This document shows positions 5,717 to 26,469 of a stretch of DNA of 64,000 nucleotides, piece after piece (position 1 is the stretch's first letter; each line of letters opens with the position of its first letter). The position numbers were made by a program, and so were the translations under genes. The DNA comes from Dasania marina DSM 21967 (GTDB lineage Bacteria; Pseudomonadota; Gammaproteobacteria; Pseudomonadales; Dasaniaceae): contig NZ_KB891592.1 in NCBI RefSeq assembly GCF_000373485.1, positions 1-64,000 of the forward strand, given 5' to 3'. A model generated the notes under the pieces. The model searched no databases. It worked only from the letters and a program-made list of their open reading frames with translations, and was not told the DNA's origin.

Positions 5717-5730
5717 AGTGGGAATAAATA

Positions 5731-6213
5731 ATGAATATTGATAGCCAACTAATTACAGAAGTCACTCATTTTATTAATCAAGAGTCAGATATGCTTGATT
5801 ACAAAGAGTACGCAGATTGGTTAAAACTTTGGTCTGAAACGGGGTTGTATATAGTGCCGGTTGATCACAGTAATACTGATTATAAAAATTCGCTGAATAT
5901 AGCCTACGACGATGCAGAAATGCGCGTTATGCGTACGGATAGATTACTAAGTGGAGAAGCTGTTTCTACACAATATGCTGAAAAGACTGTTAGAACTCTG
6001 TCTCGAATTCGGGTTGTTGGTGAAGAGGATGGCTTGATAAATGTACGTTGTGCTTATTGTTTGTATGAACATAAGAAAGGAAAAATTAGAAGCTTTCCAG
6101 CCAATGTTGAATTCAAGTTACGTCGCTTGGATGATTCATTTTTGATTGAGCAAAAAGTTATTAATATATTGCTGTCAGATCAGCATCTTAAAACAGTCAG
6201 CTATATATTTTAG
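5731..6213 (+). CDS. iacD: ring-hydroxylating oxygenase small subunit IacD
   Basis: The 160-residue product matches beta subunits of Rieske oxygenases in length and pattern: an NTF2-like fold starting INQESDMLDYKEYADWLKLW, then MRVMRTDRLLSGEAVS and a C-terminal SDQHLKTVSYIF strand. These subunits are structural partners in alpha3beta3 oxygenases. It follows the alpha-subunit gene by 14 bp and its stop touches the ribosome site of the next gene, which is typical of tight operons. Confidence 0.85.
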   Translation: MNIDSQLITEVTHFINQESDMLDYKEYADWLKLWSETGLYIVPVDHSNTDYKNSLNIAYDDAEMRVMRTDRLLSGEAVSTQYAEKTVRTLSRIRVVGEEDGLINVRCAYCLYEHKKGKIRSFPANVEFKLRRLDDSFLIEQKVINILLSDQHLKTVSYIF

Positions 6214-6221
6214 AGGTGTTT

Positions 6222-6965
6222 ATGTCGGAAGTTGTTTTGATAACAGGGGCTGGGCAAGGGTTAGGATTTGCTATCGCTCAAGGTTTTTATGATGCGGGCT
6301 ATAGTGTGGTATTGACTGATGTTGATGAGAATCTTGTCGCTGAGGCTGCAAAGTCAATTGACGACAGTCGCAGTCGCGCTATAGGATTTAAGCTAGATGT
6401 GCTAAAAAAAGATGACTTTCAACAAGCCCTAGATTTTGTAATTGACCGTTTTGGGCGCTGCGATGTGCTTGTTAATAATGCTGCGATGACGCCAACAACA
6501 CCAGTTTTAGATATAACTGCGGAAGAGTTTGATGCGGTAATGAGCGTTAATCTCCGTGGTACATTATTTGGTTGCCAGGTGTTTGCTAAGCACTTTTCAG
6601 AAAATGGTTTTGGTCGAATTATTAATATGGCTTCATTGGCAGGTCAAATGGGTGGCACAGCATCGGGCGCTCATTATGCTGCATCGAAAGCTGGCATAAT
6701 GACTTTAACAAAAGTGTTCGCTCGTCAGTTTGCTGATCAGGGCGTTACGGTAAATGCCGTTGCTCCAGGTCCAGTGGATGTGCCTTCGGTAAGAGATAAG
6801 GTACCAGCTGAAAAGCTTGAACATATAATCAATACCATGATCCCAGTTAAAGCGATGAGTAGCCCGGGATTAATTGCCAGTATGGTCGTTATGTTGGCGA
6901 GTGAGCAGTCTAGTACCGTGACCGGAGCTTGTTGGGATGCCAATGGTGGAATTTATATGCGCTGA
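6222..6965 (+). CDS. iacE: short-chain dehydrogenase/reductase IacE
   Basis: This 247-residue SDR has the NAD(P)-binding TGAGQGLG near the N-terminus, the NNAA structural motif, a catalytic Ser in NMASLAG and the YAASK Tyr-Lys pair. IacE proteins act on the product of IacA in IAA degradation. I use the ATG at 6222 with AGAGG just upstream (6212-6216) rather than the GTG at 6216. No segment suggests membrane attachment. The position between the oxygenase beta subunit and the reductase gene matches iac gene order in other bacteria. Confidence 0.85.
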   Translation: MSEVVLITGAGQGLGFAIAQGFYDAGYSVVLTDVDENLVAEAAKSIDDSRSRAIGFKLDVLKKDDFQQALDFVIDRFGRCDVLVNNAAMTPTTPVLDITAEEFDAVMSVNLRGTLFGCQVFAKHFSENGFGRIINMASLAGQMGGTASGAHYAASKAGIMTLTKVFARQFADQGVTVNAVAPGPVDVPSVRDKVPAEKLEHIINTMIPVKAMSSPGLIASMVVMLASEQSSTVTGACWDANGGIYMR

Positions 6966-7007
6966 GTTAGCATAGCTAGCCGACAGTGCCAGGATTAGAG
7001 ATATATT

Positions 7008-7964
7008 ATGACGATTAAATTAATTGATGTTGTGATTACTGCTAGGGAAGACCAAGGAGCGGGCATTGCCGTTTTTGAACTTGCGAGACCATCAGGGGAT
7101 GAGCTGCCGAGGTTTGATGCGGGCGCTCATATCGATGTGCATATAGGCGACAATTTTATTAGGCAGTATTCTCTGAGTGGCAATTCAGAAAATAAAAACA
7201 GTTACCGTCTAGGTGTTTTAAATGATCCTAATTCTCGAGGTGGTTCTGTAAAGCTTTATCAAGAGTTTAAAAAAGGTCAATTAATAAAAATAAGTGAACC
7301 AAGAAATCACTTTCCTCTAGATGCTGATGCCAAAAAAACAATTTTGGCTGGCGGCGGTATTGGTATTACACCGATGATTTCGATGGCTTATACCTTAAAG
7401 TCACAGGGTAAACCCTTTGAACTTCATTATTGTACGCGTTCAAAAGGCGCAGGTGCTTTTGAGCGGGAGCTATTACAGCAGTTTCCAGAGCAAGTTATTT
7501 TCCATTATGACGACGATGGAGGTGAGCAATTATTCTCGCCAGAAAAACTGTTTCTTCCTTATGATGCCGATTTACATATTTACGTGTGTGGTCCAACCGG
7601 TTTCATGGACTGGGTTATAAATAATGCAAAATCATTTAATTATCCATCGGAGCAGATTCACTTCGAATATTTTAGTGCTGATGTCGATGTCACAGGTGAT
7701 GCGTTTGAAGTTTACTGTGCAGTCAGCGACATCACTGTTTCTGTCGGTGAGGAAGATACGATTGTTAAAGCGCTAGCTGCAGCAGGAGTGAAAGTCGATG
7801 TTTCTTGTGAAGAAGGTGTTTGTGGTACCTGTATTACTGACGTTTTAGAGGGTGAACCGGACCATCGAGATCATTTTTTAACGGAAGAGGAAAGAAGCGA
7901 TAACGATCAAATGGCGTTGTGTTGCTCTAGGGCGAAATCGAAGCGCCTAGTTATTGATCTTTAA
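7008..7964 (+). CDS. iacF: oxygenase reductase IacF (FMN/NAD domain plus plant-type ferredoxin)
   Basis: The 318-residue protein has the phthalate-dioxygenase-reductase layout: a flavin-binding barrel with RQYSLSG (about residues 45-55), an NAD-binding domain with AGGGIGITPM, and a C-terminal [2Fe-2S] ferredoxin domain with CEEGVCGTC plus a distal Cys in MALCC. It passes electrons from NADH to the Rieske oxygenase IacCD in the cytoplasm. It follows iacE by 42 bp and is followed by the tautomerase gene. The function as oxygenase reductase is firm. Confidence 0.9.
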   Translation: MTIKLIDVVITAREDQGAGIAVFELARPSGDELPRFDAGAHIDVHIGDNFIRQYSLSGNSENKNSYRLGVLNDPNSRGGSVKLYQEFKKGQLIKISEPRNHFPLDADAKKTILAGGGIGITPMISMAYTLKSQGKPFELHYCTRSKGAGAFERELLQQFPEQVIFHYDDDGGEQLFSPEKLFLPYDADLHIYVCGPTGFMDWVINNAKSFNYPSEQIHFEYFSADVDVTGDAFEVYCAVSDITVSVGEEDTIVKALAAAGVKVDVSCEEGVCGTCITDVLEGEPDHRDHFLTEEERSDNDQMALCCSRAKSKRLVIDL

Positions 7965-8022
7965 GCATATATGAAGACAGGTAATCTGTTTGTTGTTTAG
8001 AAAAATATTAATAGGAATCGCT

Positions 8023-8214
8023 ATGCCTTTAGTAAATGTACAAATGATGGAAGGTCGCACTGACGATCAAAAAGAAGCATTGATAAAAGCCGTTGCTGAA
8101 GCAGTAATGGAATCAATAGGTGCGCCTGAAGAAAATATTAGAGTCTTAATTTCGGAATATCCTAAAAAACATTGGGGTATAGGATCCATTCCTGCTCACA
8201 AGGCGGGTCGTTAA
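8023..8214 (+). CDS. 4-oxalocrotonate tautomerase-like protein (63 aa)
   Basis: Starting at the ATG at 8023 (AGGAA 6 bp upstream) the protein is 63 residues, the standard length for the family, and begins Met-Pro. This leaves the N-terminal catalytic proline after Met removal. Arg11 in EGRTDDQK and the Arg in IRVLISE match the two substrate-binding arginines of 4-oxalocrotonate tautomerase, and H-W-G-I-G replaces the usual H-F-G-I-G near the C-terminus. An earlier in-frame start at 7990 would bury the proline and is rejected. Tautomerases are not part of the textbook iac set. Its place between iacF and iacG suggests it handles a keto-enol or double-bond isomer in indole-ring opening. There is no meta-cleavage enzyme here that would supply its usual substrate. 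Confidence 0.82.
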   Translation: MPLVNVQMMEGRTDDQKEALIKAVAEAVMESIGAPEENIRVLISEYPKKHWGIGSIPAHKAGR

Positions 8215-8245
8215 CGGAAAAAATAAATTTAGTGAGTGTAGATTA

Positions 8246-9178
8246 ATGAATACTTCAGAGTTTGATAGTAAAGAATTTCGCCCTGCATTGGGTCAGTTCC
8301 CAACCGGCGTAACCGTTATAACCACAGTAGATGAAAAGGGTGAATCTGTTGGCGTTACAGCTAGCAGCTTTAATTCAGTTTCAATGGATCCTCCGCTTAT
8401 TCTTTGGAGTGTCGATAAGAAAGCGTACAGCGCTTCTATTTTTGAAAGTGCCAGCAATTTTGTTGTTAGTGTGTTAAGTCGAGATCAGGTATCAATATCT
8501 AATCGTTTTGCTGGCCGAGGCGAGGATAAATTCGATGGTTTGGACTTGCCAGTCGGTATCGGTGGATGTCCTCTATTGGAAAAATGTGCTGCACAGTTTG
8601 AGTGTGAAGCATGGAGTGTTTATGAAGGTGGTGACCATCTTATTATTGTTGGTAAAGTTATTAAATACAGCCACGACCAGTCTAAATTGCCTTTAGTGTT
8701 TTCACAGGGGAGTTATGCGGTATCTATGCAGCACCCTGAATCAATAAAACGCAACAAGGTTAGTGCTAAACCTAATGATTTTCTGGCCGATTACTTGCCG
8801 TTTTTGTTGCATTTAGCTTTTACCGGATCTGGAGCTGAGCTATATCCACAGTTCATGGAGAGATATCAGGTAACGCCAGAAGAGTGGAGGATATTCACTT
8901 TATTGGAGTCTAGGGGTAGCAGTAACCTTTCGGATATTGCAGATATGTTGATGCAGCCTACGGTTTTTCTTGCTTCCGTGACAGAAAAGATGACGGATAA
9001 AGGTTATTTGAAAGTTGAACCTACTGCTGTTTTAACGCTTACCGAAAAGGGTTTAGAAATGAGCCAGAAATTGTTCGCGCTGGCTAAAGCGCATGAGAAG
9101 ATGACGATTGCATCGCTGAGTGATTCGCAATGTAAGGAGTTAAAATCTTCACTAAAATCTATTTGCGGTATTAAATAA
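8246..9178 (+). CDS. iacG: flavin reductase with C-terminal MarR-like domain, IacG
   Basis: Residues 1 to about 165 form an HpaC/DIM6-type flavin reductase (FPTGVTVITT, GVTASSFNSVS, FVVSVLSRDQ). Residues about 175-310 resemble a MarR winged helix (EWRIFTLLESRG, LSDIADMLMQPTVFLASVTEKM, KGYLKVEP, LTEKG). The same fusion is known in the C1 reductase of Acinetobacter p-hydroxyphenylacetate hydroxylase, where the MarR-like part holds the reductase back until the aromatic substrate binds. The pairing with IacA, a C2-like oxygenase, makes substrate-gated NADH oxidation by this protein likely. Shorter IacG proteins without the extension are common. A DNA-binding role is less likely but not excluded. 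Confidence 0.87.
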   Translation: MNTSEFDSKEFRPALGQFPTGVTVITTVDEKGESVGVTASSFNSVSMDPPLILWSVDKKAYSASIFESASNFVVSVLSRDQVSISNRFAGRGEDKFDGLDLPVGIGGCPLLEKCAAQFECEAWSVYEGGDHLIIVGKVIKYSHDQSKLPLVFSQGSYAVSMQHPESIKRNKVSAKPNDFLADYLPFLLHLAFTGSGAELYPQFMERYQVTPEEWRIFTLLESRGSSNLSDIADMLMQPTVFLASVTEKMTDKGYLKVEPTAVLTLTEKGLEMSQKLFALAKAHEKMTIASLSDSQCKELKSSLKSICGIK

Positions 9179-9305
9179 AAAGTTTATTTAATTTTTTCTT
9201 TCATATGAGCATAATAAAAAATATCTGATAGAGGTTTTTTTACAAGCTCTAAATAATAAACGCCACTTTTGCTGGCGAAAAATATTCCTTTAAAGGGATT
9301 AGATC

Positions 9306-10514
9306 ATGATTAAGCATGACGTATTTATTTGTGACAGTATTCGTACCCCCATTGGGCGCTATGGTGGTTCGCTTTCTTCAGTCCGTACTGATGATTTAGG
9401 AGCTCACGCGATTCGTGCTTTATTAAATCGCAATAAACAACTAGATCCCGCTGGTATTGATGAGATATTTTTTGGCTGCGCCAATCAGGCCGGTGAAGAT
9501 AATCGCAATGTGGCAAGAATGGCCGGCTTGTTAGCCGGTATTCCACAATCGGTTCCGGGTGTCACACTTAATCGTCTATGTGGTTCTGGCATGGATGCGG
9601 TGGGCAGCGCAGCCAGAAGCATTATAGCGGGTGAGTTGGGATTGGTGATTGCCGGAGGCGTAGAGTCGATGTCCAGAGCACCGTTTGTTATGGCCAAAGC
9701 TGACACCGCTTTCTCGCGTGATTCGAATTTATACGACACGACCATGGGGTGGCGATTTATCAACGACAAGCTACACCGTGAGTATGGCACCGATACCATG
9801 CCTGAAACGGCTGAGAATGTGGCTGAAGCTTTTTCTATTTCAAGAATGGATCAAGATTTATTTGCTTTACGCTCACAGCAAAAAGCAGCGCAGGCAATTA
9901 AGGCTGGCCGTTTTCAAGCAGAGATTGAGCCGGTCGTGATTCCACAGCGTAAAGGTGATCCTATCATTGTTAGCGTTGATGAGCATCCGCGCGAAACCAA
10001 TCTGGAGAGTTTGCAGTCACTGAAAACACCTTTTCGTCAATCGGGCACAGTTACTGCCGGCAATGCATCGGGTGTGAATGATGGTGCGGCAGCCATGTTG
10101 GTCGCAAACGAAATATCAGCTGCTAAAAATGGTTTAGAGCCGGTTGCTCGATTTATTACCATGGCAACATCAGGTGTTGAGCCTAGATTGATGGGTATCG
10201 GGCCGGTAACGGCTTCATTGAAAGCGCTCAAAAATGCGGGCTTGAGTATAAATGATATTGACGTCATTGAGCTGAATGAAGCTTTTGCCAGTCAAGGTTT
10301 AGCCGTCTTAAGAGAGCTAGGCGTTGCAGACGACGATGAACGAGTTAACCCTAATGGTGGCGCGATAGCTTTGGGCCATCCTTTAGGTATGAGTGGCGCC
10401 CGATTAGTGATGACAGCGGCGCGAGAACTATCATTAACGGGTGGTCGTTTTGCGCTTTGCACAATGTGCATAGGCGTGGGGCAGGGCATCGCTATCATTT
10501 TGGAACGAGTATGA
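9306..10514 (+). CDS. pcaF: 3-oxoadipyl-CoA thiolase
   Basis: The 402-residue thiolase has the acylation cysteine Cys92 in [12 protein letters not shown], the NEAFA motif, the catalytic His in [16 protein letters not shown] and a C-terminal [10 protein letters not shown] cysteine. Beta-ketoadipyl-CoA thiolases split 3-oxoadipyl-CoA into succinyl-CoA and acetyl-CoA, the last step of catechol ortho degradation. The length and the [12 protein letters not shown] segment suit PcaF. A ribosome site AAGGG precedes the ATG. Its TGA overlaps the ATG of the CoA-transferase gene (ATGA), coupling the last two steps of the pathway. Confidence 0.88.
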
Positions 10515-11869
10515 AAGAAGTCAGTATTATTTCTGCGCAGGAAGCTGCAGAAAAAGTTAAATCCGGTGATACATTATTGGTCGGCGGCTTTGGTATGACC
10601 GGTAACCCCGTGCAATTAGTTCATGCCTTGGCAGAGAACACATCGATTGATAATTTGACCTATGTCGGTAACAACGTCGGCGAAGCCGGTTTGGGTGGTG
10701 GTCGCTTGTTACGAAACGGGCAGCTAAAAAAAGCGATTGGTTCTTTTTTTACCAGTAATCGCGAAGCGGTAGAAGCTGCGCAAACGGGAAAGATAGAAAC
10801 CGAGTTAATTCCACAGGGTACATTGGCAGAGGCTTTACGAGCGGCAGGTGCAGGTATAGGTGGTTTTTATACCCCGACCAGTGCGGGTACTGTGTTAGCC
10901 GAGCATAAAGACTGCAAGCATTTGGATGGAAAAGATCAGGTTTTTCAAAAAGCTATTCATGGTGATGTGGCATTTATTCGCGCCTGGACGGCGGATACTG
11001 CCGGTAACTTGCAGTATCGTTTAACCGAGCGCAATTTTAACCCCTTGATGGCAACGGCAGGAAAAATAGTCATTGCTGAGGTGCAAAACATTGTAGCCGA
11101 AGGCGAGTTAAATCCAGACCAAATTCATACGCCGGGTTGTTTTGTGGATTACATAGTGCAGGCGGCGTTAACGGAAGAGGCATTAGGCTCATCTGCCAAT
11201 GTGGCCAGCAGTGATAAGGTGGTAAGCCCAGAGCGTATGAGCATGGCACGGGCAGTGTTGGGTGAATTACGGCGCGGCGATGTAGTGAACTTAGGGATAG
11301 GTATTCCAACCTTGGTTGCAGATCTTATTACACCCGAGCATGGCATTATTTTACATAGCGAAAACGGTATGTTGGGCGTAGGGCCTGAACCGAAAAGTGG
11401 TGGTGCTATGGATTACCCCGTAAATGCCGGGAAAATTCCGGTAACCGCTTTGCCTGGTAGCAGTTACTTCGATTCCTCTGAGTCGTTTGGAATGATTCGC
11501 GGTGGGCATATCGATGTTGCCGTTATGGGCGGATTAGAAGTTGATGGCCATGCTGACCTTGCTAACTGGGCAGTGCCGGGCAAACCCTTGCTTGGTGTTG
11601 GCGGTGCCATGGATTTAGCTAGTGGTGCAAAGCGTCTGATTGTTACTATGACCCATACCGATAAGAAAGGCCGACCAAAGTTGGTAGCTGACTGCAAGTT
11701 ACCACTCACGGCAATTGCATCGGTAGATGTCATTATTACTGAGCTGGCTGTTTTTCATCGCGATGGAAATATTTGGAACCTAACTCAGTTAATGCCGGGT
11801 ATTGAATTGGCAGAGGTCAGTAAAAAAACAACAATGCCATTTAAGGTTTCTCTCAATAAGGTTGAGTAA
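10511..11869 (+). CDS. 3-oxoacid CoA-transferase, A and B subunits fused (3-oxoadipate:succinyl-CoA)
   Basis: Both halves of a type I CoA-transferase are in one 452-residue chain. The A part comes first ([15 protein letters not shown], then [11 protein letters not shown], up to about residue 230). The B part follows ([27 protein letters not shown]), with the catalytic Glu in the SENGMLG motif. Next to pcaF and the cat genes it most likely makes 3-oxoadipyl-CoA from 3-oxoadipate and succinyl-CoA, a job usually done by separate PcaI and PcaJ. I start at the ATG at 10511, which overlaps the thiolase stop, instead of the longer reading from 10457 that runs inside the thiolase gene. An acetoacetate-specific SCOT is the alternative. 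Confidence 0.85.
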
Positions 11870-12110
11870 TTGCTTACTGAACAAGAAATTATCAATAATA
11901 ATTATTCAGATTCGAAATTATTTTGATAATGGTAATCAGTATGAATAAGTTTTAATGTTGGTTTATTTATGTAGAGAATATCAAAGATTGAAATTACTTT
12001 TTGAATTTTAAGTTTATCGTCACTGTGTAAAAAAACATTACATTTGAATTTATTCTTCATGGCTAGGATGTAAAAAATTCGATGAATGTTAACTTTAATC
12101 ACCTATTACA

Positions 12111-13250
12111 ATGGTTCTTATAATGAATGTTACAGAATTAAAAATAGAAAAATTCGAATCTTTTTTGTTGGATGTTCCAACAATACGTCCTCATATTTTA
12201 TCTATGGCCACCATGCATTCACAAACTATTGTTCTGCTAAGAATAACATTCTCTGATGGAACGGTCGGTTTGGGTGAGGCGTCAACTATTGGAGGGCTAG
12301 CTTATGGTGATGAAAGCCCTGAAGGTATAAAGGTGTCACTTGATAGCTATTTTGCACCACTGTTACTCAATCAACCTTATAAAAGTGTTGGTGGTACAAT
12401 GTTGCGAATTAATAAAAATATTGTCGGTAATAGATTTGCTAAAAACGCCATTGAAATTGCATTAATGGATGCTATGGGACATCGCTTAGGTGTTCCTGTT
12501 TCGGAGTTGCTAGGTGGTCGTATAGTGGATCATATTCCGGTTCTTTGGGTGCTTGCGAGTGGTGATTTGAGCAAAGATATTGCCGAAGCGGAAGAAATGA
12601 TTGCTAGCAGGCGACACAATGTTTTTAAAATAAAAATTGGCAAGCGATCAGTGGATCAAGATGTTGCCCATGTTGCTGCTATTAAACAGGCTTTAGGTGA
12701 TGCGGCTAGTATCCGTGTTGATGTTAATCAAGCATGGACACGTTGGCAAGCTAATCGCGGATCCGCGATGTTAGCCGATGCAGGTATTGACCTGATAGAG
12801 CAACCATTAAGGCATGATGATATTGAGGGTATGAAGCAATTAGTTCAACAGGGAAGAATCGCAATTATGGCCGATGAAAGTGTGCAAGGGCCAAAAATTG
12901 CTTTTGACATGACGACAGCTTATTCCGCAGATGTTTACTCGATTAAAATAGCGCAGTCAGGTGGGTTATCCGAAGCAGCTAGAGTTGCATCGATTGTTTC
13001 CATATCGGGAGCTGCTCCTTATGGCGGTACTATGCTTGAACCTCATATTGGAACAGTGGCGTCTGCACAGTTATTTTCTACCTTTCCTAGTTTGGAGTGG
13101 GGGACGGAGCTTTTTGCGCCACTATTATTAAAAGAACAATACGTAAATGAAACATTGGATTATGTTGATTTTGGTTTAACTGTTCCTAATAGCCCAGGTT
13201 TAGGTATTTCTTTAGATGAAGATAAAGTAAGTTATTTTAGTCGCAAGTAA
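12111..13250 (+). CDS. catB: muconate cycloisomerase
   Basis: This enolase-superfamily protein (379 residues, or 375 if the ATG at 12123 is used) has the KIKIG lysine, metal ligands in RVDVNQAW, LIEQPL and MADES, the second lysine in SIKIAQSGG, and the CatB-typical TMLEPHIGT segment. It converts cis,cis-muconate to muconolactone. A 241-bp AT-rich gap separates it from the CoA-transferase gene, so catBCAD may have its own promoter. No clear ribosome site distinguishes the two starts. Gene order catB-catC-catA is the common gammaproteobacterial one. Confidence 0.9.
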   Translation: MVLIMNVTELKIEKFESFLLDVPTIRPHILSMATMHSQTIVLLRITFSDGTVGLGEASTIGGLAYGDESPEGIKVSLDSYFAPLLLNQPYKSVGGTMLRINKNIVGNRFAKNAIEIALMDAMGHRLGVPVSELLGGRIVDHIPVLWVLASGDLSKDIAEAEEMIASRRHNVFKIKIGKRSVDQDVAHVAAIKQALGDAASIRVDVNQAWTRWQANRGSAMLADAGIDLIEQPLRHDDIEGMKQLVQQGRIAIMADESVQGPKIAFDMTTAYSADVYSIKIAQSGGLSEAARVASIVSISGAAPYGGTMLEPHIGTVASAQLFSTFPSLEWGTELFAPLLLKEQYVNETLDYVDFGLTVPNSPGLGISLDEDKVSYFSRK

Positions 13251-13278
13251 AAAAATTGTATTTTTTGGAGGTCTAAGT

Positions 13279-13569
13279 ATGTTGTTTAAAGTAGAAATGG
13301 AAGTGATTGTTCCTCATGATGTGGACCCTGAAATTTTTGAATCGATAAAAAGTAAAGAAAAAGAATATGCCAGTGAATTGCAGTCTAAGGGCGTATGGAG
13401 GCATCTCTGGAGGGTGGCAGGAGAATATAAAAATATCAGTATTTTTGATGTTGATAGCAATCAGGCGTTACATGATACGTTAATGGGGCTACCTTTGTAC
13501 CCCTATATGAATGTTGAGGTAACTCCTCTGTGTCGCCACCCATCATCAATTCATAACGATGATAGGTAG
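13279..13569 (+). CDS. catC: muconolactone delta-isomerase
   Basis: The 96-residue product matches CatC throughout: FKVEMEVIVPHDVDP at the start, KEKEYASELQSKGVWRHLWRV in the middle, and LPLYPYMNVEVTPLCRHPSS at the end. It converts muconolactone to 3-oxoadipate enol-lactone. A good TTGGAGG ribosome site precedes the ATG and the gene lies 28 bp after catB. Confidence 0.93.
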   Translation: MLFKVEMEVIVPHDVDPEIFESIKSKEKEYASELQSKGVWRHLWRVAGEYKNISIFDVDSNQALHDTLMGLPLYPYMNVEVTPLCRHPSSIHNDDR

Positions 13570-13613
13570 AATGTTTTAAATCTGTTTAGCTATAATAAAA
13601 TGAGGTGAATCTA

Positions 13614-14495
13614 ATGAGTAACGAAATAACTGATAGTGTTGAAATTCAAAAATTTCTGGATAAAGTTGCAGGTTTGGATAATGACCAAGGAAATCCGCGT
13701 ATTAAAACGATCGTGCGTCGCTTAGTAGGTGATCTATTCGCAGCAATTGAAGATTTAGAAATTAATGAAACTGAGTTTTGGAAAGGTTTACATTTTATTC
13801 AGGCGGCCGCGCCCGAATTGATTTTAATTTCTCCTGGATTAGGCTTTGACCACTTTCTTGATGTGCTGATGGATGAAGCTGATAAGAAGGCCGGTAAACT
13901 TGGTGGTACGCCACGGACTATTGAAGGCCCGTTATATGTTGAGAATGCCCCTATTAGCGATGGCTACGCTGAGATGGTGACTGATGAACCCGGTGATCCA
14001 ATGGAGTTGACTGGTGTGGTTAAAGATCAACAAGGAAACCCTATCGATAGCGCTCTAGTTGAAATTTGGCATGCGAGTGAAACCGGTGGTTACTCACACT
14101 TTGACCCAACCCTTGTGGAGTTTGCTTTCCGTCGCGGTATTCGCACAGGTGCTGATGGTGCATATAAAGCGAAAAGTATTATGCCTTCTGGTTATGCAGT
14201 GCCTCCTGGAGGTTCAAGTGAGACTCTTTTAGGTCAACTAGGTCGCCATGGTAATCGTCCTGCACATATTCATTTCTTTGTTTCTGCGCCTGGTTATAAG
14301 CATTTGACAACACAAATTAATATTGCCGGTGACCCGTTCACCTACGATGACTTTGCCTTTGCTACTCGTGATGAGTTGGTAGTTGAGTCCAGTGATGTAG
14401 ATGGTATAGCTAAGGTTAAATTTGATTTAACCTTAGTAAAAAGCCACGACGATGACGATACCGCTCGTGCTGCTCGTAATCGGATGGCTGGTTAA
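13614..14495 (+). CDS. catA: catechol 1,2-dioxygenase
   Basis: The 293-residue protein is an intradiol dioxygenase with an N-terminal helical dimerisation/lipid-binding region and a C-terminal beta domain. The iron ligands are Tyr in EGPLYVE, Tyr in PSGYAVPP and the two His in RPAHIHFFVSAPGYKHLT. It opens catechol to cis,cis-muconate. The start at 14 bp downstream of the GTG at 13605 is not needed: the ATG at 13614 has GAGG at 13602-13605 and gives the usual N-terminus. It ends 4 bp before the enol-lactonase start. Confidence 0.93.
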   Translation: MSNEITDSVEIQKFLDKVAGLDNDQGNPRIKTIVRRLVGDLFAAIEDLEINETEFWKGLHFIQAAAPELILISPGLGFDHFLDVLMDEADKKAGKLGGTPRTIEGPLYVENAPISDGYAEMVTDEPGDPMELTGVVKDQQGNPIDSALVEIWHASETGGYSHFDPTLVEFAFRRGIRTGADGAYKAKSIMPSGYAVPPGGSSETLLGQLGRHGNRPAHIHFFVSAPGYKHLTTQINIAGDPFTYDDFAFATRDELVVESSDVDGIAKVKFDLTLVKSHDDDDTARAARNRMAG

Positions 14496-14499
14496 TTCT

Positions 14500-15303
14500 A
14501 TGAGCTTAAATAGTTTACCTATAAAGTTTATGGCAAATGATGGCTGTAATATACATTACAGCCATCATGTTAATGCCGGTAAGCCAACACTCGTTCTATC
14601 TAATTCTTTAGGTACAACAATGGCTATGTGGGAGCCTCAATTAGAGGTTTTAAAAAATCATTTTAGTGTTGTTTGTTATGATTCTCGAGGCCATGGTTGT
14701 TCAGATGTGTTTCCGGGGTCTTACTCAGTAGATCGACTAGGTTGTGATGTTGTTGAACTTTTAGATTTTTTAGATCTTGATAAAGTTCATTTCTGTGGTC
14801 TCTCTATTGGGGGGATGGTTGGTCAATGGTTAGCTGCTCGTTTCCCAAGTCGAATTAATTCTCTTGTATTGGCAAATACTTCAGCCTGTATAGAGCCTTC
14901 CTCTATGTGGCAAGATCGCATTAACCATGTACAAAAAGAAGGTTTACTCAGTATTTGGGGTAATGTTCTTGCACGATGGCTGTCTTCGGATTTTATCAAA
15001 AATAATGCTGAAGCAGTTGACAATATGAAGGCCATGTTTAGTAGTATTGATAGTGATGGCTATTGTGGTTGTTGTGCGGCTATTCGTGATATGGATCTGC
15101 GTCAAGTCGCTAATTTAAATAAGCTTCCTACACTAATTATCGCGGGAGCTCAGGACTTAGCAACGCCTATTGAACATTCGGAATATTTACTGAGTCAATA
15201 TTCTGATGGCAAGCTAATCACATTAGACGCGGGTCATCTATCAAATGTTGAGCAAACTGAGGGGTTTAATCAAGCTATCCTTGATTTTTTAGTTGAACGC
15301 TAA
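14500..15303 (+). CDS. catD: 3-oxoadipate enol-lactonase
   Basis: The 267-residue alpha/beta hydrolase has the nucleophile Ser102 in GLSIGGMVGQWL, an acid in IIAGAQDLATP and the histidine in LDAGHLSN, which is the PcaD/CatD pattern. It hydrolyses 3-oxoadipate enol-lactone to 3-oxoadipate. I use the ATG at 14500; the longer reading from 14452 would overlap the end of catA in another frame. It completes the set from catechol to 3-oxoadipate. The symbol could equally be pcaD. Confidence 0.88.
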   Translation: MSLNSLPIKFMANDGCNIHYSHHVNAGKPTLVLSNSLGTTMAMWEPQLEVLKNHFSVVCYDSRGHGCSDVFPGSYSVDRLGCDVVELLDFLDLDKVHFCGLSIGGMVGQWLAARFPSRINSLVLANTSACIEPSSMWQDRINHVQKEGLLSIWGNVLARWLSSDFIKNNAEAVDNMKAMFSSIDSDGYCGCCAAIRDMDLRQVANLNKLPTLIIAGAQDLATPIEHSEYLLSQYSDGKLITLDAGHLSNVEQTEGFNQAILDFLVER

Positions 15304-19429: not shown

Positions 19430-20851
19430 ATGAAAAAATTCAATATGACTATCAACGGTCAGCAAATTATTTCAGACAGTTATTTTGATGTCATTAATCC
19501 GGCAACTGAACAGGTCTTTGCGCAGTGCGCAAAAGGAAGTGCAGATGATGTGGATCGCGCGGTGGACGCTGCTAGCGAGGCATTTAAAAGTTGGAGCGTG
19601 ATGGCTGACGCTGATCGTAAGGCAGCACTACATGCCGTGGCAAGTTTGCTTGAAACCAATATGCCCGAATTAATGGAGTTGATTGTACAGGAGACTGGTA
19701 AGCCAATGCTGGGTTTGAATCAGGTTGGTGCGGGTATGGAAGTTGGCGGTGCTGCAGCTTGGGCGCACGTTAATGCCGATATCGATTTACCGGTTGAAGT
19801 GATTCAGGACAATGAAGATGCTCGGATAGAGTTGCATCGTAAGCCGTTAGGGGTGGTGGCGTCTATTACACCTTGGAACTGGCCTTTGTTGATTGCTATT
19901 TGGCATATTATTCCCGCGATGCGTGCCGGCAACACGGTGGTGCTTAAGCCTTCACCCTTAACGCCAGTTACGACTGCGCGTTTTGTGGAGTTGGCCAATA
20001 CGGTATTGCCGCCGGGAGTGCTAAACTTGGTGTCAGGTGATGGCGACGTGGGTGCGGCAATGACCGCCCATGAAGGTATTGCCAAAGTTGTCTTTACCGG
20101 CTCTACCGATACTGGTAAGCAAATTATGAAAGCGGCATCTGGCAACTTAAAGCGGCTGACGTTGGAGCTAGGCGGTAATGATGCAGGCATCGTCTTAGAC
20201 GATGTTGATCCTATTGCTATAGCCCCTAAATTGATTGGTGCTTGCTTTCACAACAATGGCCAGACTTGCGCGGCATTAAAGCGGCTCTATGTTCATGAAA
20301 GTATGTACGAGTCTGTCTGCTCTGAAATGGCTAGGTTAGCCAGTGGCTTGGTGGTAGGTAATGGCTTGGCGGAAGGCACTGAGCTTGGCCCCGTTCAAAA
20401 CCAAATGCAGTTGGAGATTGTAGAATCATTGGCTGAATCGGCGAGAACCGAGGGTGGCCGCTTCCTGTGTGGTGGTAAGAGGCGCGAAGGTAAAGGCTAT
20501 TTCTATGAGCCTACTATCGTCGCAGATTTGGTTGATGGCAATCGACTGGTTGATGAAGAGCCTTTTGGGCCAATTGTCCCGGTGATTAAATACAGTGACA
20601 TCGATGAGGTTATTAAGCAGGCTAATAGCAGCCCTAATGGCTTGGGTGGTTCTGTTTGGTCAACCGATACTGCCCGTGCAGTTGAAATTGGTAAACGTCT
20701 TGAGACGGGCACAGTATGGATTAACGATCATGGCGCAGTGCAACCCGATATGCCATTCGGAGGTGTTAAACAGTCAGGTTTTGGGGTGGAGTTTGGATTA
20801 CATGGTCTACAGGAATTTACCTCCATCCAATCCGTTAAAATTGCTAAATAA
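19430..20851 (+). CDS. NAD(P)-dependent aldehyde dehydrogenase, probable aryl-acetaldehyde dehydrogenase
   Basis: The 473-residue protein has the aldehyde dehydrogenase catalytic pair Glu246 (LELGGNDAG) and Cys280 (NNGQTCAALKR), the ITPWNWPL nucleotide-binding loop and the C-terminal PFGGVKQSGFGVEFG motif. Directly upstream of a TTQ amine dehydrogenase, its expected substrate is the aldehyde released by that enzyme, for example indole-3-acetaldehyde going to IAA. The amine dehydrogenase acts in the periplasm and this protein lacks a signal peptide, so the aldehyde must cross the inner membrane. Substrate is inferred from context alone. Confidence 0.87.
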   Translation: MKKFNMTINGQQIISDSYFDVINPATEQVFAQCAKGSADDVDRAVDAASEAFKSWSVMADADRKAALHAVASLLETNMPELMELIVQETGKPMLGLNQVGAGMEVGGAAAWAHVNADIDLPVEVIQDNEDARIELHRKPLGVVASITPWNWPLLIAIWHIIPAMRAGNTVVLKPSPLTPVTTARFVELANTVLPPGVLNLVSGDGDVGAAMTAHEGIAKVVFTGSTDTGKQIMKAASGNLKRLTLELGGNDAGIVLDDVDPIAIAPKLIGACFHNNGQTCAALKRLYVHESMYESVCSEMARLASGLVVGNGLAEGTELGPVQNQMQLEIVESLAESARTEGGRFLCGGKRREGKGYFYEPTIVADLVDGNRLVDEEPFGPIVPVIKYSDIDEVIKQANSSPNGLGGSVWSTDTARAVEIGKRLETGTVWINDHGAVQPDMPFGGVKQSGFGVEFGLHGLQEFTSIQSVKIAK

Positions 20852-20893: not shown

Positions 20894-22201
20894 ATGAAAT
20901 TTGAAACTGTGAAAAAGCTGGTGCTGGTTAGCGCAGTGCTAACGGTTCTTTGGAGCTGCTCAAAAGATGAATCTTTAGTTGCTACCACAGAACAAGCTCC
21001 AGCCGACGCTAAAGTGGAAGCAAAGCCCAAAGGGCCTGCTATAACTGGCGCAGATTCTCTGGCGCCCCATGAAAAACCTCAAATATTGGCGGATAGCACC
21101 AGGCCGCCGCTGCCTATTGAAGAGACGGGTAATGTTGCTAGATTACCTCGCAGCTACCCTGAACATTGGGTGATGGTAAGAGAGGTTAACTTTTTCAACC
21201 ATCTTTCCGGTAAAGTTATCGTGCTTGATGTGGCTGAGACCAAGCCGCAAAAGCGTATTAAGGGAATGATGGACAGTAGTTTGCTGGGTAATTTTGGGCA
21301 ATCGAAAACCCGCGGTGAACTTTATATATTAGAGTCCTTCCACGAGCGGGGAACCCGTGGGCCCAGAACGGATGTGTTAGTGATTTATGATAAAGAGACG
21401 CTTTCGATTAAAAAAGAAATTGTTTGGTTACAGCCCAACCGTATTATGGCGTTACCTGAGCGTTATTCGATTTCACTCTCTAAGGATGAAAAATTTCTAT
21501 TTGCTGCCAATTTTAGCCCAGCGGCGTCGTTTACTGTTGTGGATTTGGATAAGCAGGAAATCGTCACCGAGATTGGAACTCCCGGTTGTGTGCTGACCTA
21601 TCCCGTCGGTCAGCGTACTGTTGCTTCGCTTTGTAGTAATGGTGGCATGTTAAGTACAACGGTGAATGAAGATGGTACATTGAAATCTCAAAAGCGTCTT
21701 AAACCGTTCTTTGATACCGATAAAACACCCATTTTTGAGCATGGCGTATTCTTCAATGGTCAAGCTTTTTACCCTAGTTTCACCGGTTTATTACATGGTT
21801 TTGATGTTAGTGGCGAAGAGGTGAAATACTTGGGTAGCAGTAGTCTGGTTTCAGAGGATGAGCAAGAAAAAAACTGGCGTCCTGGTGGCTTGTTCCTTAA
21901 CGATGTCGATGATACTGGTTTAATGTATACCATTTTTCAGCCTGATGGCCATGAAGGCACCCAGACCCATGGTGGCACAGAAGTTTGGGTACATGACTTA
22001 AAAACGAAGCAGCGTGTTCGTCGAATTGAGGTGCCTAACTGGGCAGTTTCTTTGGTGGTGACACGGGGTGAAAATCCACTTTTAGTGGTCACTAATGGTG
22101 AAATGAATCTGGATATTTTTAATGCCAATGATGGTTCATTTATTCACACGGTGTCTGACTTTGGCAATGTCACACCATTGGCCTTAGAGAAGTCTTACTG
22201 A
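20894..22201 (+). CDS. aauB: TTQ amine dehydrogenase heavy chain (aralkylamine type)
   Basis: The 435-residue protein matches heavy (alpha) chains of methylamine/aromatic amine dehydrogenase, seven-bladed beta-propellers. Repeated blade strands are visible (VMVREVNFFNHLSGKVIVLD, YSISLSKDEKFLFAANFSP, WRPGGLFLNDVDDTGLMY). Characteristic segments are EVWVHDLKTKQRVRRIE and GTQTHGGTEVW near the C-terminus. The N-terminus is a signal peptide ending L-W-S-C at Cys22, followed by a linker rich in Ala, Lys and Pro, so the chain may be a lipoprotein, unlike the soluble classical enzymes. Heavy and light chains form a periplasmic alpha2beta2 enzyme that deaminates primary amines. The aromatic-amine assignment rests on the aau-like gene order and the IAA genes next door. 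Confidence 0.85.
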   Translation: MKFETVKKLVLVSAVLTVLWSCSKDESLVATTEQAPADAKVEAKPKGPAITGADSLAPHEKPQILADSTRPPLPIEETGNVARLPRSYPEHWVMVREVNFFNHLSGKVIVLDVAETKPQKRIKGMMDSSLLGNFGQSKTRGELYILESFHERGTRGPRTDVLVIYDKETLSIKKEIVWLQPNRIMALPERYSISLSKDEKFLFAANFSPAASFTVVDLDKQEIVTEIGTPGCVLTYPVGQRTVASLCSNGGMLSTTVNEDGTLKSQKRLKPFFDTDKTPIFEHGVFFNGQAFYPSFTGLLHGFDVSGEEVKYLGSSSLVSEDEQEKNWRPGGLFLNDVDDTGLMYTIFQPDGHEGTQTHGGTEVWVHDLKTKQRVRRIEVPNWAVSLVVTRGENPLLVVTNGEMNLDIFNANDGSFIHTVSDFGNVTPLALEKSY

Positions 22202-22214
22202 GTAAGGGCGTTGT

Positions 22215-22760
22215 ATGGAACTATTATCTGCAATGAGTAATTCCGTCGCCGTGTTTATGCTCTGGCTGTTTGTTACGGCGGGTATCAGCAAACTAATGCC
22301 GGCTAACCGGGATTATTATATCGAAGTGATGGCCGGTTACGGTCTTGTATTGCCTGAGTTAGCTAAAACATTGCCAGTGTTGGTTGGCTTGGCTGAAATT
22401 GTTACCGGGGTGCTAACATTAATCCCGCATACTCGTCTGTTTGGTGTGATGGCATCTGTGTCCATTTTGTTAATTTATTTTGGCGTGATGGCGAACAAAG
22501 TTCTAGCTGGCGAAAAAAATATACGTTGTGGTTGCTCCGGACCTGGCGTCAATATGAACGTCAGCCCGGTGTTATTGGTTCGTAATGCTGTGTTAATCGC
22601 CTTGCTTATTTTTTCAGGTATGAATATTTATAGCGTAGATGTAGATGCAGGCTTGTGGCTTGTGTCAATAATATTTGCGCTTATTTTTATTATTGTTAGT
22701 TTGAGTACGGAACAGCTAATCATTAATGAACAAAAAATAAAAGTGCTTAAAGCGCTTTAA
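22215..22760 (+). CDS. aauE: MauE/DoxX-like membrane protein for amine dehydrogenase maturation
   Basis: This 181-residue membrane protein has about four to five hydrophobic helices and the family features LFVTAGISKLMPA in helix 1, GLAEIVTGVLTLIP in helix 2 and a cytoplasmic-side IRCGCSGPG cysteine pair. MauE/AauE proteins are needed with MauD for export-coupled folding of the disulfide-rich light chain. The gene starts 13 bp after the heavy chain and lies in the conserved order B-E-D-A. Confidence 0.87.
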   Translation: MELLSAMSNSVAVFMLWLFVTAGISKLMPANRDYYIEVMAGYGLVLPELAKTLPVLVGLAEIVTGVLTLIPHTRLFGVMASVSILLIYFGVMANKVLAGEKNIRCGCSGPGVNMNVSPVLLVRNAVLIALLIFSGMNIYSVDVDAGLWLVSIIFALIFIIVSLSTEQLIINEQKIKVLKAL

Positions 22761-22775
22761 ATTGAGGATGTGGTT

Positions 22776-23378
22776 GTGGATGTATTAGTCGTTTCTAATA
22801 TTTTGTTGTGGGTTGCTGTGGTGATTATGGCAGCGGTCATATATGCCTTAACCCGGCAGATCGGCGTGCTTTATGAGCGAGTTGCCCCCGCCGGAGCTTT
22901 GGCGATGAACAAGAACATAGACGTAGGGCAGGATGCGCCAGAATTGTCGTTACCAACGATCAACTCTAAGTTGGTCACTGTTGGAGGTAAATCTGCTGAT
23001 GGAAAATCTCAGCTATTGTTTTTTGCGTCGCCCGATTGCCCCGTGTGTAAAACACTGATGCCGGCGTTGAAATCGGCAGCCAAGCATGAAGCCGATTGGG
23101 TTAATTTAATTATTGGTAGTGATGGGAAAAATCAAGATCATAAGCGTTATGTTAAAGAACAAGGGCTAGAGCCTTACCCCTATATCGTTTCTGAGTTATT
23201 AGGAAAAACCTACGGCGTGGCGAAACTACCTTATGCGGTGATTATCGACGAGCAGGGTAAGGTGGCGTCTATGGGTATAGTCAATTCTCGAGAGCATATC
23301 GATAGCCTTTTTGAAGCCAAAGAAAGAAAAGTCGCTTCAATTCAAGATTACATGAGCAATAAAAATCAGCAATATTAA
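22776..23378 (+). CDS. aauD: MauD-like thioredoxin-fold maturation protein
   Basis: The product (200 residues from the GTG at 22776, which has GAGG 8 bp upstream; a GTG at 22770 is also possible) has one N-terminal membrane anchor and a periplasmic thioredoxin-like domain with the redox pair CPVC in FFASPDCPVCKTLM and a cis-Pro region KLPYAVI. MauD assists formation or rearrangement of the light-chain disulfides. It precedes the light-chain gene by 24 bp. Confidence 0.88.
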   Translation: MDVLVVSNILLWVAVVIMAAVIYALTRQIGVLYERVAPAGALAMNKNIDVGQDAPELSLPTINSKLVTVGGKSADGKSQLLFFASPDCPVCKTLMPALKSAAKHEADWVNLIIGSDGKNQDHKRYVKEQGLEPYPYIVSELLGKTYGVAKLPYAVIIDEQGKVASMGIVNSREHIDSLFEAKERKVASIQDYMSNKNQQY

Positions 23379-23402
23379 ATAACGGGTACAAGGTTTAACA
23401 GT

Positions 23403-23918
23403 ATGAAATTTCTTGATCGTTTTTTTGAAAAGTCTGCACGCAGTGTTGCTCAGAGGAGCTCTAGAAGAGGCTTGTTGAAGACGCTTGGTACCGGTTTGGT
23501 TGGTGCAGCATCGATTCCTCTATTGCCAGTAGCACGGGCTTCAGATGGTGCTCCGAAACAACCAGTGGATGAGGGTGATCCAACCAGTTGTGACTATTGG
23601 CGTTATTGTGCAGTCGATGGTTTTTTGTGTGAATGTTGCGGTGGGACTTATAATACCTGCCCTCCGGGCACAGAGATGTCACCCATTACTTGGATTGGCA
23701 CGTGTCGCAACCCGGTAGATGGCCGTAATTATGTCATTTCCTACAATGATTGTTGTGGTACAACACAGTGTGGTAGCTGCCTGTGTCAACGAGATGAAGG
23801 GGATAGGCCGCTGTATCGATCGGACAAGTCTAACGACATTAATTGGTGTTTGGGTTCCAGTAGTAGTGTTTATCATTGCTCTACTGCTGTGGTGGTTGGA
23901 GTGGCTTTCGAACAATGA
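23403..23918 (+). CDS. aauA: TTQ amine dehydrogenase light chain (aralkylamine type)
   Basis: This 171-residue chain carries the cofactor. A Tat-type leader (SSRRGLLK) runs to about residue 47. The two tryptophans that become tryptophan tryptophylquinone are Trp97 (ITWIGTC) and Trp148 (INWCLG), 51 residues apart as in methylamine dehydrogenase Trp57/Trp108. Asp72 (AVDG) and Asp116 (YNDCC) sit at the positions of its Asp32 and Asp76. The chain has 14 cysteines against 12 in classical MADH light chains; the two extra are in LCECC and TTQC. Its TGA overlaps the ATG of the cytochrome gene. Amine specificity (tryptamine, phenylethylamine or tyramine) cannot be read directly. Confidence 0.92.
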   Translation: MKFLDRFFEKSARSVAQRSSRRGLLKTLGTGLVGAASIPLLPVARASDGAPKQPVDEGDPTSCDYWRYCAVDGFLCECCGGTYNTCPPGTEMSPITWIGTCRNPVDGRNYVISYNDCCGTTQCGSCLCQRDEGDRPLYRSDKSNDINWCLGSSSSVYHCSTAVVVGVAFEQ

Positions 23919-24337
23919 AATGCTTGCTAGTGTTAGCAGTAGCCGTTATTGGGTCGACGCATATTTTTGCGCTTGAGGTGAATGAGCCGCGAGCTAAATT
24001 CAACTATCAAATGTTTTGCCAAGGCTGTCATGTTGGTGATGGTTCTGGACATAAAGGCGTGCCTGAAATCAAAGATTTCATTGGTAACTTTTTGACTTTT
24101 CAGGAGGGGAGAGAGTATTTGATCCGTGTGCCGGGATCAGCAAACTCTGCGCTTGATAGCTATCAATTAGCTGAGTTAATGAATTGGATGATTGTGACTT
24201 ATGGTGGTAGTAGCGTGCCTGAGAAATGGGCTGTTTATACTACAGAAGAGGTCGAAAAATATAGGCAAGAACCTCTTTATGAAGTTATTGATTATAGGAA
24301 GAAGTTGGTCGATTTTATATCGGAAAATAATAAGTAA
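23915..24337 (+). CDS. small periplasmic monoheme cytochrome c
   Basis: From the ATG at 23915, overlapping the light-chain stop, the 140-residue product has a signal peptide ending near IFA-LEV and a single heme site CQGCH, with a distal Met-containing helix (LAELMNWMIV). A small monoheme cytochrome also follows the light-chain gene in the aau cluster of Alcaligenes faecalis. It probably takes electrons from the amine dehydrogenase, or passes them on. The longer reading from 23876 starts inside the light-chain gene and is rejected. Confidence 0.85.
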   Translation: MKCLLVLAVAVIGSTHIFALEVNEPRAKFNYQMFCQGCHVGDGSGHKGVPEIKDFIGNFLTFQEGREYLIRVPGSANSALDSYQLAELMNWMIVTYGGSSVPEKWAVYTTEEVEKYRQEPLYEVIDYRKKLVDFISENNK

Positions 24338-24909
24338 TGGTACGAGTTATGAAAATAAATAAGTTGTTGGTTATGGTGTTGACCGTTTTGTTAATGGCGA
24401 TAAGTGGCTCAGTAATAGCCAGTGAAAATATCGATAAAGCGGTAAAGGCTTGTGCTGCATGTCATGGCGCTAATGGAGTGTCTAATAATGGCCAGTGGCC
24501 GAATCTGGCTGGTCAAAAAGAGCAATATTTAATTAGCCAAATCAATGCGTTCCGTAACGGTAGCAGAAGTGATGCCTTGATGAACGCAAGTGTTCAGGGC
24601 TTGTCAGATAAACAAGTCGCTGCGATTGCCCGATATTTTTCCTCGCTAAAGAGAGAGCAGAATGTCCCGGGTGACCTTGCTCTAGAGGGTCTCAATGTAC
24701 GAGCCCGTTGTGTTTCATGCCATGGTATGAAAGGCCGTACGGTTAACACTGAATGGCCCAATTTAGCGGGTCAGAAGTATGAGTACGTTAAAAAACAGTT
24801 AATGGACTTTAAGTCGGGAGCTCGTAAAAGCCCCATTATGGAAGTGATTGCCAATGAACTAAATGATGAGCAGATTGCAGCCGTAGCCGATCACTATAGT
24901 AAATTATAA
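24337..24909 (+). CDS. diheme cytochrome c4-like protein
   Basis: The 190-residue precursor has a signal peptide ending near SVIA-SEN and two similar cytochrome c domains with heme sites CAACH and CVSCH. Each is followed by the c4-type sequence WPNLAGQK, and distal methionines lie in DALMNASV and SPIMEVI. Its ATG overlaps the preceding TAA by one base (TAATG). An in-frame ATG at 24349 is possible. A c4 cytochrome would carry electrons to a terminal oxidase. It is not MauG-like: MauG is longer and belongs to the diheme peroxidase family. Confidence 0.87.
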   Translation: MVRVMKINKLLVMVLTVLLMAISGSVIASENIDKAVKACAACHGANGVSNNGQWPNLAGQKEQYLISQINAFRNGSRSDALMNASVQGLSDKQVAAIARYFSSLKREQNVPGDLALEGLNVRARCVSCHGMKGRTVNTEWPNLAGQKYEYVKKQLMDFKSGARKSPIMEVIANELNDEQIAAVADHYSKL

Positions 24910-25506: not shown

Positions 25507-26469
25507 ATGCAGATGAGATCCACTGCGCTGATTTGTGAGAAGTTCCAGGGTGATACAGCTATAGAGCAGCTGGGGCAAATGGCGTCAGAGACTTTTTGCC
25601 CGCTGAGTTGTTGGGCTAACAATTCAAATTATTCTGGCTATTTCAACCAAGGGTGTTTGGATAGAGTTACATTGTCCGATGTTGGCGGTAGCGCCCTTGA
25701 GGTTGATAGAAGAAAGCAGCATATATCCCAGGTTGCAGATAGTTATTATTTGGTGAAATTTCAATTACATGGTATGTCTAAGCTTCAGCATATGGGGCGG
25801 GAATCTATTTTACATCCAGGGGACTTTATCCTTTGTAATAGCTCTGAGCCCTACAGGCTTAGCTTCAAAGATAATTATCGCCAAACTGTGATGGCCATAC
25901 CTCAGGCACAATTAAATACGCTAGTAACCGATGTTGAAGACAGTGTGGGGTATACAATGTCTGGTGATAGCCCTGTTAACGGTATGTTAAGCCAGTTTGT
26001 TTCATCGTTGATGGAAAACTACAATACCATTCCACCTGATAGCTTTCGCCGCCTAGAAGCTAACGCTTTAGACCTATTGGTGACTTCGCTAGAGGCTAGT
26101 AAAGCTCTGGGCTCTAAAGAGAAGCGGTCGGTAAAGGATGATCATTTCATGCGTATTAAGCAGTTTATTTTTTTACATTTATCGGACTCGCGATTATCGC
26201 CTGATTTTATTGCAGATATTGAAGGTATCAGTACACGTTATTTACATATGTTGTTTAAGTCGGAGGGTGTTTCTATTTCACGTTACATCCAATATCTGCG
26301 TCTTGAGGCTTGTGCTAAGAAGTTATCTGATCCTCAATATAATCGTGCATCAGTATTAGAAATTGCTCTTGATCAGGGCTTTAATGATGTATCGAGTTTT
26401 TACCGATCCTTTAGAAATCACTTCGGTATCACCCCTAAGCAATACCGTGTAAAAACACTTAATAGCTAA
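25507..26469 (+). CDS. AraC-family transcriptional activator
   Basis: The 320-residue protein has an N-terminal cupin-like ligand-binding part (HGMSKLQHMGRESILHPGDFILCNSSEPY, the pattern of FeaR/AraC_binding_2-type regulators) and a C-terminal double helix-turn-helix (DFIADIEGISTRYLHMLFKSEG, then SVLEIALDQGFNDVSSFYRSFRNHFGITPKQYR). FeaR-like proteins activate aromatic amine oxidation genes. Standing at the end of the amine dehydrogenase block, this is a good candidate for its activator. A second ATG at 25513 is possible. Confidence 0.85.
   Translation: MQMRSTALICEKFQGDTAIEQLGQMASETFCPLSCWANNSNYSGYFNQGCLDRVTLSDVGGSALEVDRRKQHISQVADSYYLVKFQLHGMSKLQHMGRESILHPGDFILCNSSEPYRLSFKDNYRQTVMAIPQAQLNTLVTDVEDSVGYTMSGDSPVNGMLSQFVSSLMENYNTIPPDSFRRLEANALDLLVTSLEASKALGSKEKRSVKDDHFMRIKQFIFLHLSDSRLSPDFIADIEGISTRYLHMLFKSEGVSISRYIQYLRLEACAKKLSDPQYNRASVLEIALDQGFNDVSSFYRSFRNHFGITPKQYRVKTLNS

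Follow-up and report, generated by a model that had tools for sequence, protein, structure and literature searches.

A monohaem cytochrome encoded beside MauG-less tryptophan tryptophylquinone amine dehydrogenases is a candidate cofactor-forming partner in Dasania marina

Dasania marina DSM 21967 carries a six-gene cluster for a predicted tryptophan tryptophylquinone (TTQ) amine dehydrogenase in the window analysed here, the whole stretch of 64,000 nucleotides from contig NZ_KB891592.1, which belongs to contig 18 of an assembly of 4.10 Mb in 18 contigs rated 99.14% complete. The genes occupy positions 20894–24909 of the forward strand, tightly packed in one direction, and encode in order the heavy chain, MauE, MauD, the TTQ light chain and two cytochromes, named cytA and cytB. 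The aauB-like heavy chain (20894–22201) matches PF06433 (E 2.2e-32) and scores far under the cut-off of TIGR02658; it is followed by a MauE-like membrane protein (22215–22760; PF07291, E 4.8e-20) and a MauD-like thiol-disulfide protein with a GTG start (22770–23378; TIGR02661, 189.7 bits against a cut-off of 188.6). The aauA-like light chain (23403–23918; PF02975, E 3.2e-52) bears a twin-arginine leader by inspection. cytA (23915–24337), the candidate TTQ-forming partner, is a monohaem cytochrome of 140 residues with a leader peptide by inspection, in which the loop bearing the Met ligand is deleted, while cytB (24337–24909; PF00034 twice) is a dihaem cytochrome c4-like electron carrier with a Met at a usual place after each of its two CxxCH haem motifs. 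These domain matches bear out the gene content given in a first-pass annotation made from the sequence alone, except for the start of cytA, which is moved from TTG 23876 to ATG 23915. The latter is the most likely start and overlaps the light-chain stop as ATGA, and the final base of the cytA stop codon is also the first base of cytB; the upstream TTG, taken from a mechanical list of open reading frames (ORFs), was set aside.

The product of the cluster is predicted to be a TTQ enzyme of the aromatic amine dehydrogenase (AADH) type, forming TTQ and acting on aromatic amines. PF02975 and PF06433 occur in one cluster, together with the two precursor tryptophans and the two key aspartates; MauE and MauD are present, and MauF and MauG are absent. 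The nearest solved relatives of the light chain are AADH chains (2agl_D, E 5e-47), and the cut-offs of the methylamine dehydrogenase (MADH) equivalogs TIGR02659 and TIGR02658 are missed (158.2 against 196.85 bits and 109.3 against 454.45 bits, respectively). The first TTQ tryptophan, Trp97 (codon 23691–23693, forward strand, as are the following), the second, Trp148 (23844–23846), and Asp116 (23748–23750) are invariant across all 130 aligned light-chain rows, and Asp72 (23616–23618) occurs in 127 of them; its position is Ser or Asn in three light chains (L155, L162 and L181), each with cytA adjoining. We take Trp97, Trp148, Asp72 and Asp116 to be the equivalents of βTrp57, βTrp108, Asp32 and Asp76 of MADH. 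The presence of both precursor tryptophans and both key aspartates had already been noted in the first-pass annotation, and their conservation agrees with it.

In the whole D. marina genome, the CCP_MauG family models PF03150 and TIGR03791 give no match at E 0.001, the E. coli and Methanosarcina controls being positive, and a MauF query from Paracoccus denitrificans finds nothing there, in a search without a positive control of its own. Fifty-nine TTQ genomes (56 non-MADH and 3 MADH) were checked with TIGR03791, whose curated cut-off is passed by none of them, the 3 MADH genomes included; the cut-off is thus useless as a divider, and only the absence of any match at 0.001 was counted. On this basis 17 of the 56 non-MADH genomes have no match, and all 17 are also without PF03150, which is present in the three MADH genomes; a completeness figure is absent for 15 of the 17. 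PF03150 has no match either in three of nine further TTQ genomes from a phylum sample, two of which (G464 and G590) are single-contig and rated 100% complete. Of the 65 genomes in total that encode a non-MADH TTQ light chain, 20, D. marina included, hold no MauG-family member, while the other 45 hold some member, whose presence does not tell its role. Viral contigs were also searched and contained no light-chain relative. Since 20 of 65 genomes with a cytA-type TTQ enzyme have no CCP_MauG match, a MauG-free route must exist if the enzymes are active. The first-pass annotation had found neither MauF nor MauG in the cluster, had concluded that the cofactor must nevertheless form, and had named an unlinked MauG, for which it proposed a search of the full genome, or a different mechanism. 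The absence now extends to a nearly complete genome, in which the search yields no MauG homologue and no mauG–mauF pair, and the conclusion is accepted on condition that the enzyme is active. An unlinked MauG is very unlikely in D. marina, as no CCP_MauG match exists in a 99%-complete genome and none was found in 19 other TTQ genomes; a different mechanism is favoured.

The cytA protein has about 120 mature residues, with one CxxCH in the D. marina protein, and shows no Pfam or NCBIfam match at 0.001. Membership of the MauG/CCP_MauG family was considered and is ruled out by the single CxxCH and the lack of a PF03150 match. The haem-binding motif CQGCH (24017–24031, forward strand) is present as CxxCH in 86 of 86 aligned cytA sequences, an alignment for which the motif was required and from which diverged cytA sequences are left out. 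The AlphaFold model (predicted local distance difference test score 95.6) has a c552 fold, its best solved relative being Thermus thermophilus cytochrome c552 (1c52; Z 11.5, 108 aligned residues, 2.7 Å), and Foldseek with this model gives no match better than E 5e-3. The cytA profile matches Thermus c552 at E 4e-22, aligning with both flanks of a stretch of about 21 residues where cytA has about 3, so that about 18 residues are missing; the two proteins share the fold and a C-terminal extension. By alignment of an operon-neighbour cytochrome to c552, the Met of its GVM motif falls inside this stretch, and the Met ligand of Thermus c552 is presumably Met69. At the position of the Met-ligand loop of related cytochromes, cytA has Val-Pro-Gly (24128–24136, forward strand; V 85/86, P 85/86, G 86/86). 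Among pattern-matched proteins, the haem His and the Asn of the last helix stand 50–52 residues apart in 102 of 104 cytA against 68–70 in 30 of 33 other cytochromes, and a Met lies in the 14 residues before the last helix in 32 of the 33 others against 9 of the 104 cytA; c552-type carriers of the same operons keep the loop. These features point to cytA as a class I cytochrome c of the Thermus c552 type with its Met-ligand loop deleted, whose haem probably has an open sixth site. Elsewhere in the 86 sequences, no column of Met, His, Lys or Tyr is invariant, an alternative axial ligand being judged from conservation alone.

The co-occurrence of cytA with non-MADH TTQ enzymes is exclusive. Searched with a cytA profile of 69 rows, a class sample of 369 genomes gives at least 126 bits in 10 genomes, precisely those that encode a non-MADH light chain; 150 genomes match at 0.001, and the best of the 140 others reaches 40.7 bits. 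A phylum sample of 398 genomes gives at least 92 bits in exactly the 11 genomes with a full-length light chain, 9 of which are new to the profile; at 1e-8 four other genomes match (best 45.5 bits), and G663 and G693, which have weak fragmentary light-chain matches only, do not. Together with 49 of 49 further non-MADH TTQ genomes (lowest 121 bits), cytA is present in 68 of 68, and at 1e-12 it is found in none of three incomplete MADH genomes. The genomes are related to one another, and simple probabilities for the co-occurrence would be over-optimistic.

At the level of loci, cytA (at least 75 bits) stands behind the light chain in 107 of 114, a set in which at least one place is counted twice (as L156 and L071). 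Its haem motif lies 83–237 bases past the light-chain stop in one group and 533–817 bases past it in another, where a further cytochrome gene is in between in most cases. Same-strand ORF clusters found within 5 kb in more than 66 of the 114 loci are limited to merged heavy and light chains (114), cytochromes (113) and MauD (97); this clustering did not keep heavy and light chains apart, nor cytA and other cytochromes, and it gave no separate MauE cluster, and cytA was therefore counted by profile. Eighty named loci are the best-scoring of at least 597 stretches and are thus biased towards the type of the window itself, the two genome samples and the plasmid set being less biased.

The plasmid set comprises 31 records with a light-chain relative, 15 with an annotated mauA and 16 others, in which cytA was searched by a single-sequence query. 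MauG is present in all 15 mauA records, 13 by tblastn at 1e-40 and 2 by the gene annotated where mauG would lie (as MauG in Methylobacterium DM1 and as cytochrome c peroxidase in Indioceanicola), and cytA in none of them; MauF is annotated in the 3 mau clusters inspected. cytA is present in 15 of the 16 other records, the sixteenth being a weak partial match (40% of the query) in Thermomicrobium, and MauG at 1e-40, a strict threshold that also missed the two true MauG, in none. One cytA match (H32) falls in SARO_RS19985 on pNL2 of Novosphingobium aromaticivorans DSM 12444. Across 124 loci, the P. denitrificans query detects MauF in all 5 MADH loci and in none of the 119 others (a set that adds a second double, L161 and L070), and MauG is present in 3 of the 5 and 0 of the 119; the 119 contain no ORF of at least 280 residues with two haem motifs spaced as in MauG. 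One of the two MADH loci without MauG, the cluster of G312, runs off its contig. MauG and cytA never stand together in one cluster examined. In a light-chain tree of 75 rows, the five MADH rows form one clade (100/99) beside a cytA-bearing clade (99/90), which suggests that cytA came first and MauG later; with 112 usable columns and a midpoint root, this stays a suggestion. On the MADH side, the MADH-type locus L028 (positions 5000–13535) of G333 encodes MauF and MauJ, and the 9.5 kb downstream are free of MauG; cytA is absent from this genome, which is 82% complete. Ten Azospirillum plasmids (H60–H69) encode a protein 54–57% identical to P. denitrificans MauG, and no light-chain relative was found on them; this protein is possibly a MauG with another target.

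To our knowledge, how TTQ arises in AADH without MauG has been an open question since the cluster was sequenced. MauG finishes TTQ by long-range oxidation of a precursor already holding a mono-hydroxylated Trp, and other tryptophylquinones rely on the flavoproteins QhpG, LodB and GoxB (PMC7876137, PMC6405878, PMC7699789). The literature searched holds no account of an AADH-specific TTQ partner, although its coverage of subscription papers is thin and this is not proof of absence in print. In the pathway proposed here, MauE and MauD would aid export and folding of the light chain as in MADH, these being the roles of their families. Loss of the distal Met ligand with its loop would leave the cytA haem with an open sixth site; we infer that cytA, fed O2 or peroxide, may convert hydroxylated Trp97 and Trp148 of the precursor light chain to TTQ by oxidation, replacing MauG and MauF, after which cytB or another carrier would accept electrons from the mature enzyme. 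The missing Met-ligand loop and the tie to MauG-less TTQ enzymes make cytA the leading candidate partner rather than a bystander, and we regard it as an evenly balanced proposition that this open-site haem protein completes TTQ in the place of MauG.

Several points weigh against this proposal. The co-occurrence of cytA would be equally expected of a dedicated electron acceptor or of a structural subunit, and the bis-Fe(IV) state of MauG is out of reach for a protein with one haem. Catalytic residues of the peroxidase type were not identified in cytA, in which Tyr12 and Tyr89 are common (72/86 and 75/86). Six of the 104 cytA, all among the 9 with a Met before the last helix and of three sequence types (L018; L178, L182 and L185; L184 and L186), have it in the short loop, 1–3 residues behind the Pro-Gly. 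The profile was built partly from genomes later searched with it, and the three MADH control genomes are only 78–82% complete. Furthermore, 50 of the 107 cytA loci have no other ordinary haem carrier adjacent, 7 of these showing another CxxCH frame, in a pattern-based count.

The chief rival, which we consider rather unlikely, is that non-MADH TTQ dehydrogenases depend on cytA as their immediate electron acceptor or as an electron-entry subunit, in a part comparable to that of amicyanin, with TTQ made otherwise. This role would suit a small c-type cytochrome that has a leader and is encoded next to the dehydrogenase in 107 of 114 loci; amicyanin directly follows the light chain in the mau clusters of Paracoccus and Methylobacterium, and the 50 loci without another ordinary carrier adjacent fit a carrier role as well. 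However, the Met-ligand loop usual in carriers is deleted in cytA and kept by the c552-type carriers of the same operons. An additional ordinary carrier is nearby in the other 57 of the 107 loci (20 c4 and 37 c552 type, by approximate pattern-based assignment), where cytA is thus not simply the carrier, and these carriers vary by lineage while cytA stays. For the Alcaligenes enzyme, moreover, azurin is the acceptor generally cited. The first-pass annotation had taken both cytochromes for electron carriers, which fits cytB and is incomplete for cytA. Sequence data cannot separate a TTQ-forming cytA from an electron-accepting one.

It is improbable that TTQ forms autocatalytically or with a general periplasmic oxidant, cytA having a side role such as quality control or peroxide removal; the initial hydroxylation step of MADH, like that of LodA/GoxA, is regarded as autocatalytic (PMC7876137), yet this would leave unexplained the strict occurrence of cytA with these enzymes and its absence from the MauG-bearing MADH plasmids. 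That TTQ is completed by a MauG encoded elsewhere, or by QhpG or another shared quinone-forming enzyme, is hardly credible: some protein matches TIGR03791 under its cut-off in 39 of 56 cytA-type TTQ genomes, and the gamma subunit of quinohaemoprotein amine dehydrogenase (PF08992, the QhpG substrate; 0 of 14 control genomes positive in this search) is present in 4 of the 20 MauG-free genomes, but the other 16, D. marina included, have none (QhpG itself was not searched for), all 20 are without a PF03150 member, and the single-contig G464 and G590 argue against a gene hidden in a missing part of an assembly.

If cytA does complete TTQ, a one-haem protein of about 120 residues would do work thought to need a dihaem bis-Fe(IV) enzyme, and MauG, the model system for protein-derived quinone biogenesis, would be the exception. 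One named gene goes with the MauG-less TTQ enzymes in every genome examined, and its probable open haem site gives its candidacy a structural basis. A wider reading, which we advance tentatively and with somewhat less than even confidence, is that a Met-less monohaem cytochrome is the general and perhaps ancestral TTQ-forming partner, MauG and MauF being a single later replacement confined to MADH.

The nearest known system is the aau cluster of Alcaligenes faecalis, which the D. marina cluster resembles in its heavy chain–MauE–MauD–light chain order and in a light chain nearest to AADH chains. Chistoserdov reportedly noted in 2001 that MauF and MauG are absent from the aau cluster and that a small monohaem cytochrome gene (orf-2) lies near the light chain. 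The D. marina cluster differs in the dihaem c4 that comes next, and for D. marina the absence of MauG is shown genome-wide. The mau cluster of P. denitrificans PD1222 shares the heavy chain, MauE, MauD, the light chain and the TTQ residues, whereas it has MauF, amicyanin, MauJ, MauG and two ferredoxin-type genes, with no cytA on its plasmid. MauG and cytA have in common only the proposed role of a periplasmic c-haem protein that finishes TTQ; cytA differs in its single haem motif, its small size and its fold. QhpG, LodB and GoxB, which serve cysteine tryptophylquinone biogenesis, offer a precedent for tryptophylquinones made without MauG (PMC7876137). They are flavoproteins, and no family beyond the TTQ genes and cytochromes recurs in more than 66 of the 114 TTQ loci.

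The seven loci without cytA in the fetched stretch are L019, L021, L064, L079, L092, L094 and L101. L019 and L021 belong to G120, where cytA is present in L020; L064, L079, L092 and L101 are from G415, G400, G416 and G417, respectively, each with cytA elsewhere in the genome, and the stretch of L101 stops about 130 bases past the light chain. L094 comes from the same metagenome-assembled genome as L076, which has cytA. Tandem TTQ dehydrogenases, in which one heavy–light pair is followed by a second, share a single cytA in L054, L061, L063, L066, L074 and L080. Six more diverged TTQ clusters from Novosphingobium genomes contain a diverged cytA (77–91 bits) with Leu-Pro-Asn in place of Val-Pro-Gly and without the Met loop; no MauG lies in their fetched stretches, and five of the six genomes are among the MauG-free ones. 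L023, from the small 1.7 Mb genome G006, has a light chain and cytA, and none of the genes adjoining the light chain was recognised as heavy chain, MauE or MauD. In Sphaerotilus (H30), cytA is present, the light-chain match is partial (53%) and no heavy chain is annotated nearby. Thermomicrobium roseum NC_011961 (L192) has an annotated light chain and a second, unannotated partial match (717–1169 and 6001–6216) and, as neighbours, a protein of 596 residues annotated as MauE/DoxX and large hypothetical proteins; the annotation shows neither a heavy chain nor MauD, cytA or MauG nearby.

The surroundings of the D. marina cluster suit amine catabolism, as an aldehyde dehydrogenase gene and, by inspection, a TonB-receptor-like gene lie upstream and an AraC-family regulator gene lies downstream. 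The aldehyde dehydrogenase (19430–20851, forward strand; PF00171, E 9.4e-148), located ahead of the heavy chain as a similar gene is in many near relatives, probably acts on the aldehyde product. The FeaR-like AraC-family protein (25507–26469, forward strand; NF007243 FeaR, 160.7 bits, under the cut-off of 199) is the probable regulator of the TTQ cluster. Further upstream, at 13605–15303, an intradiol-dioxygenase-like gene is followed by an enol-lactonase-like hydrolase gene, both by inspection, which suggests that aromatic ring cleavage is encoded upstream of the amine dehydrogenase.

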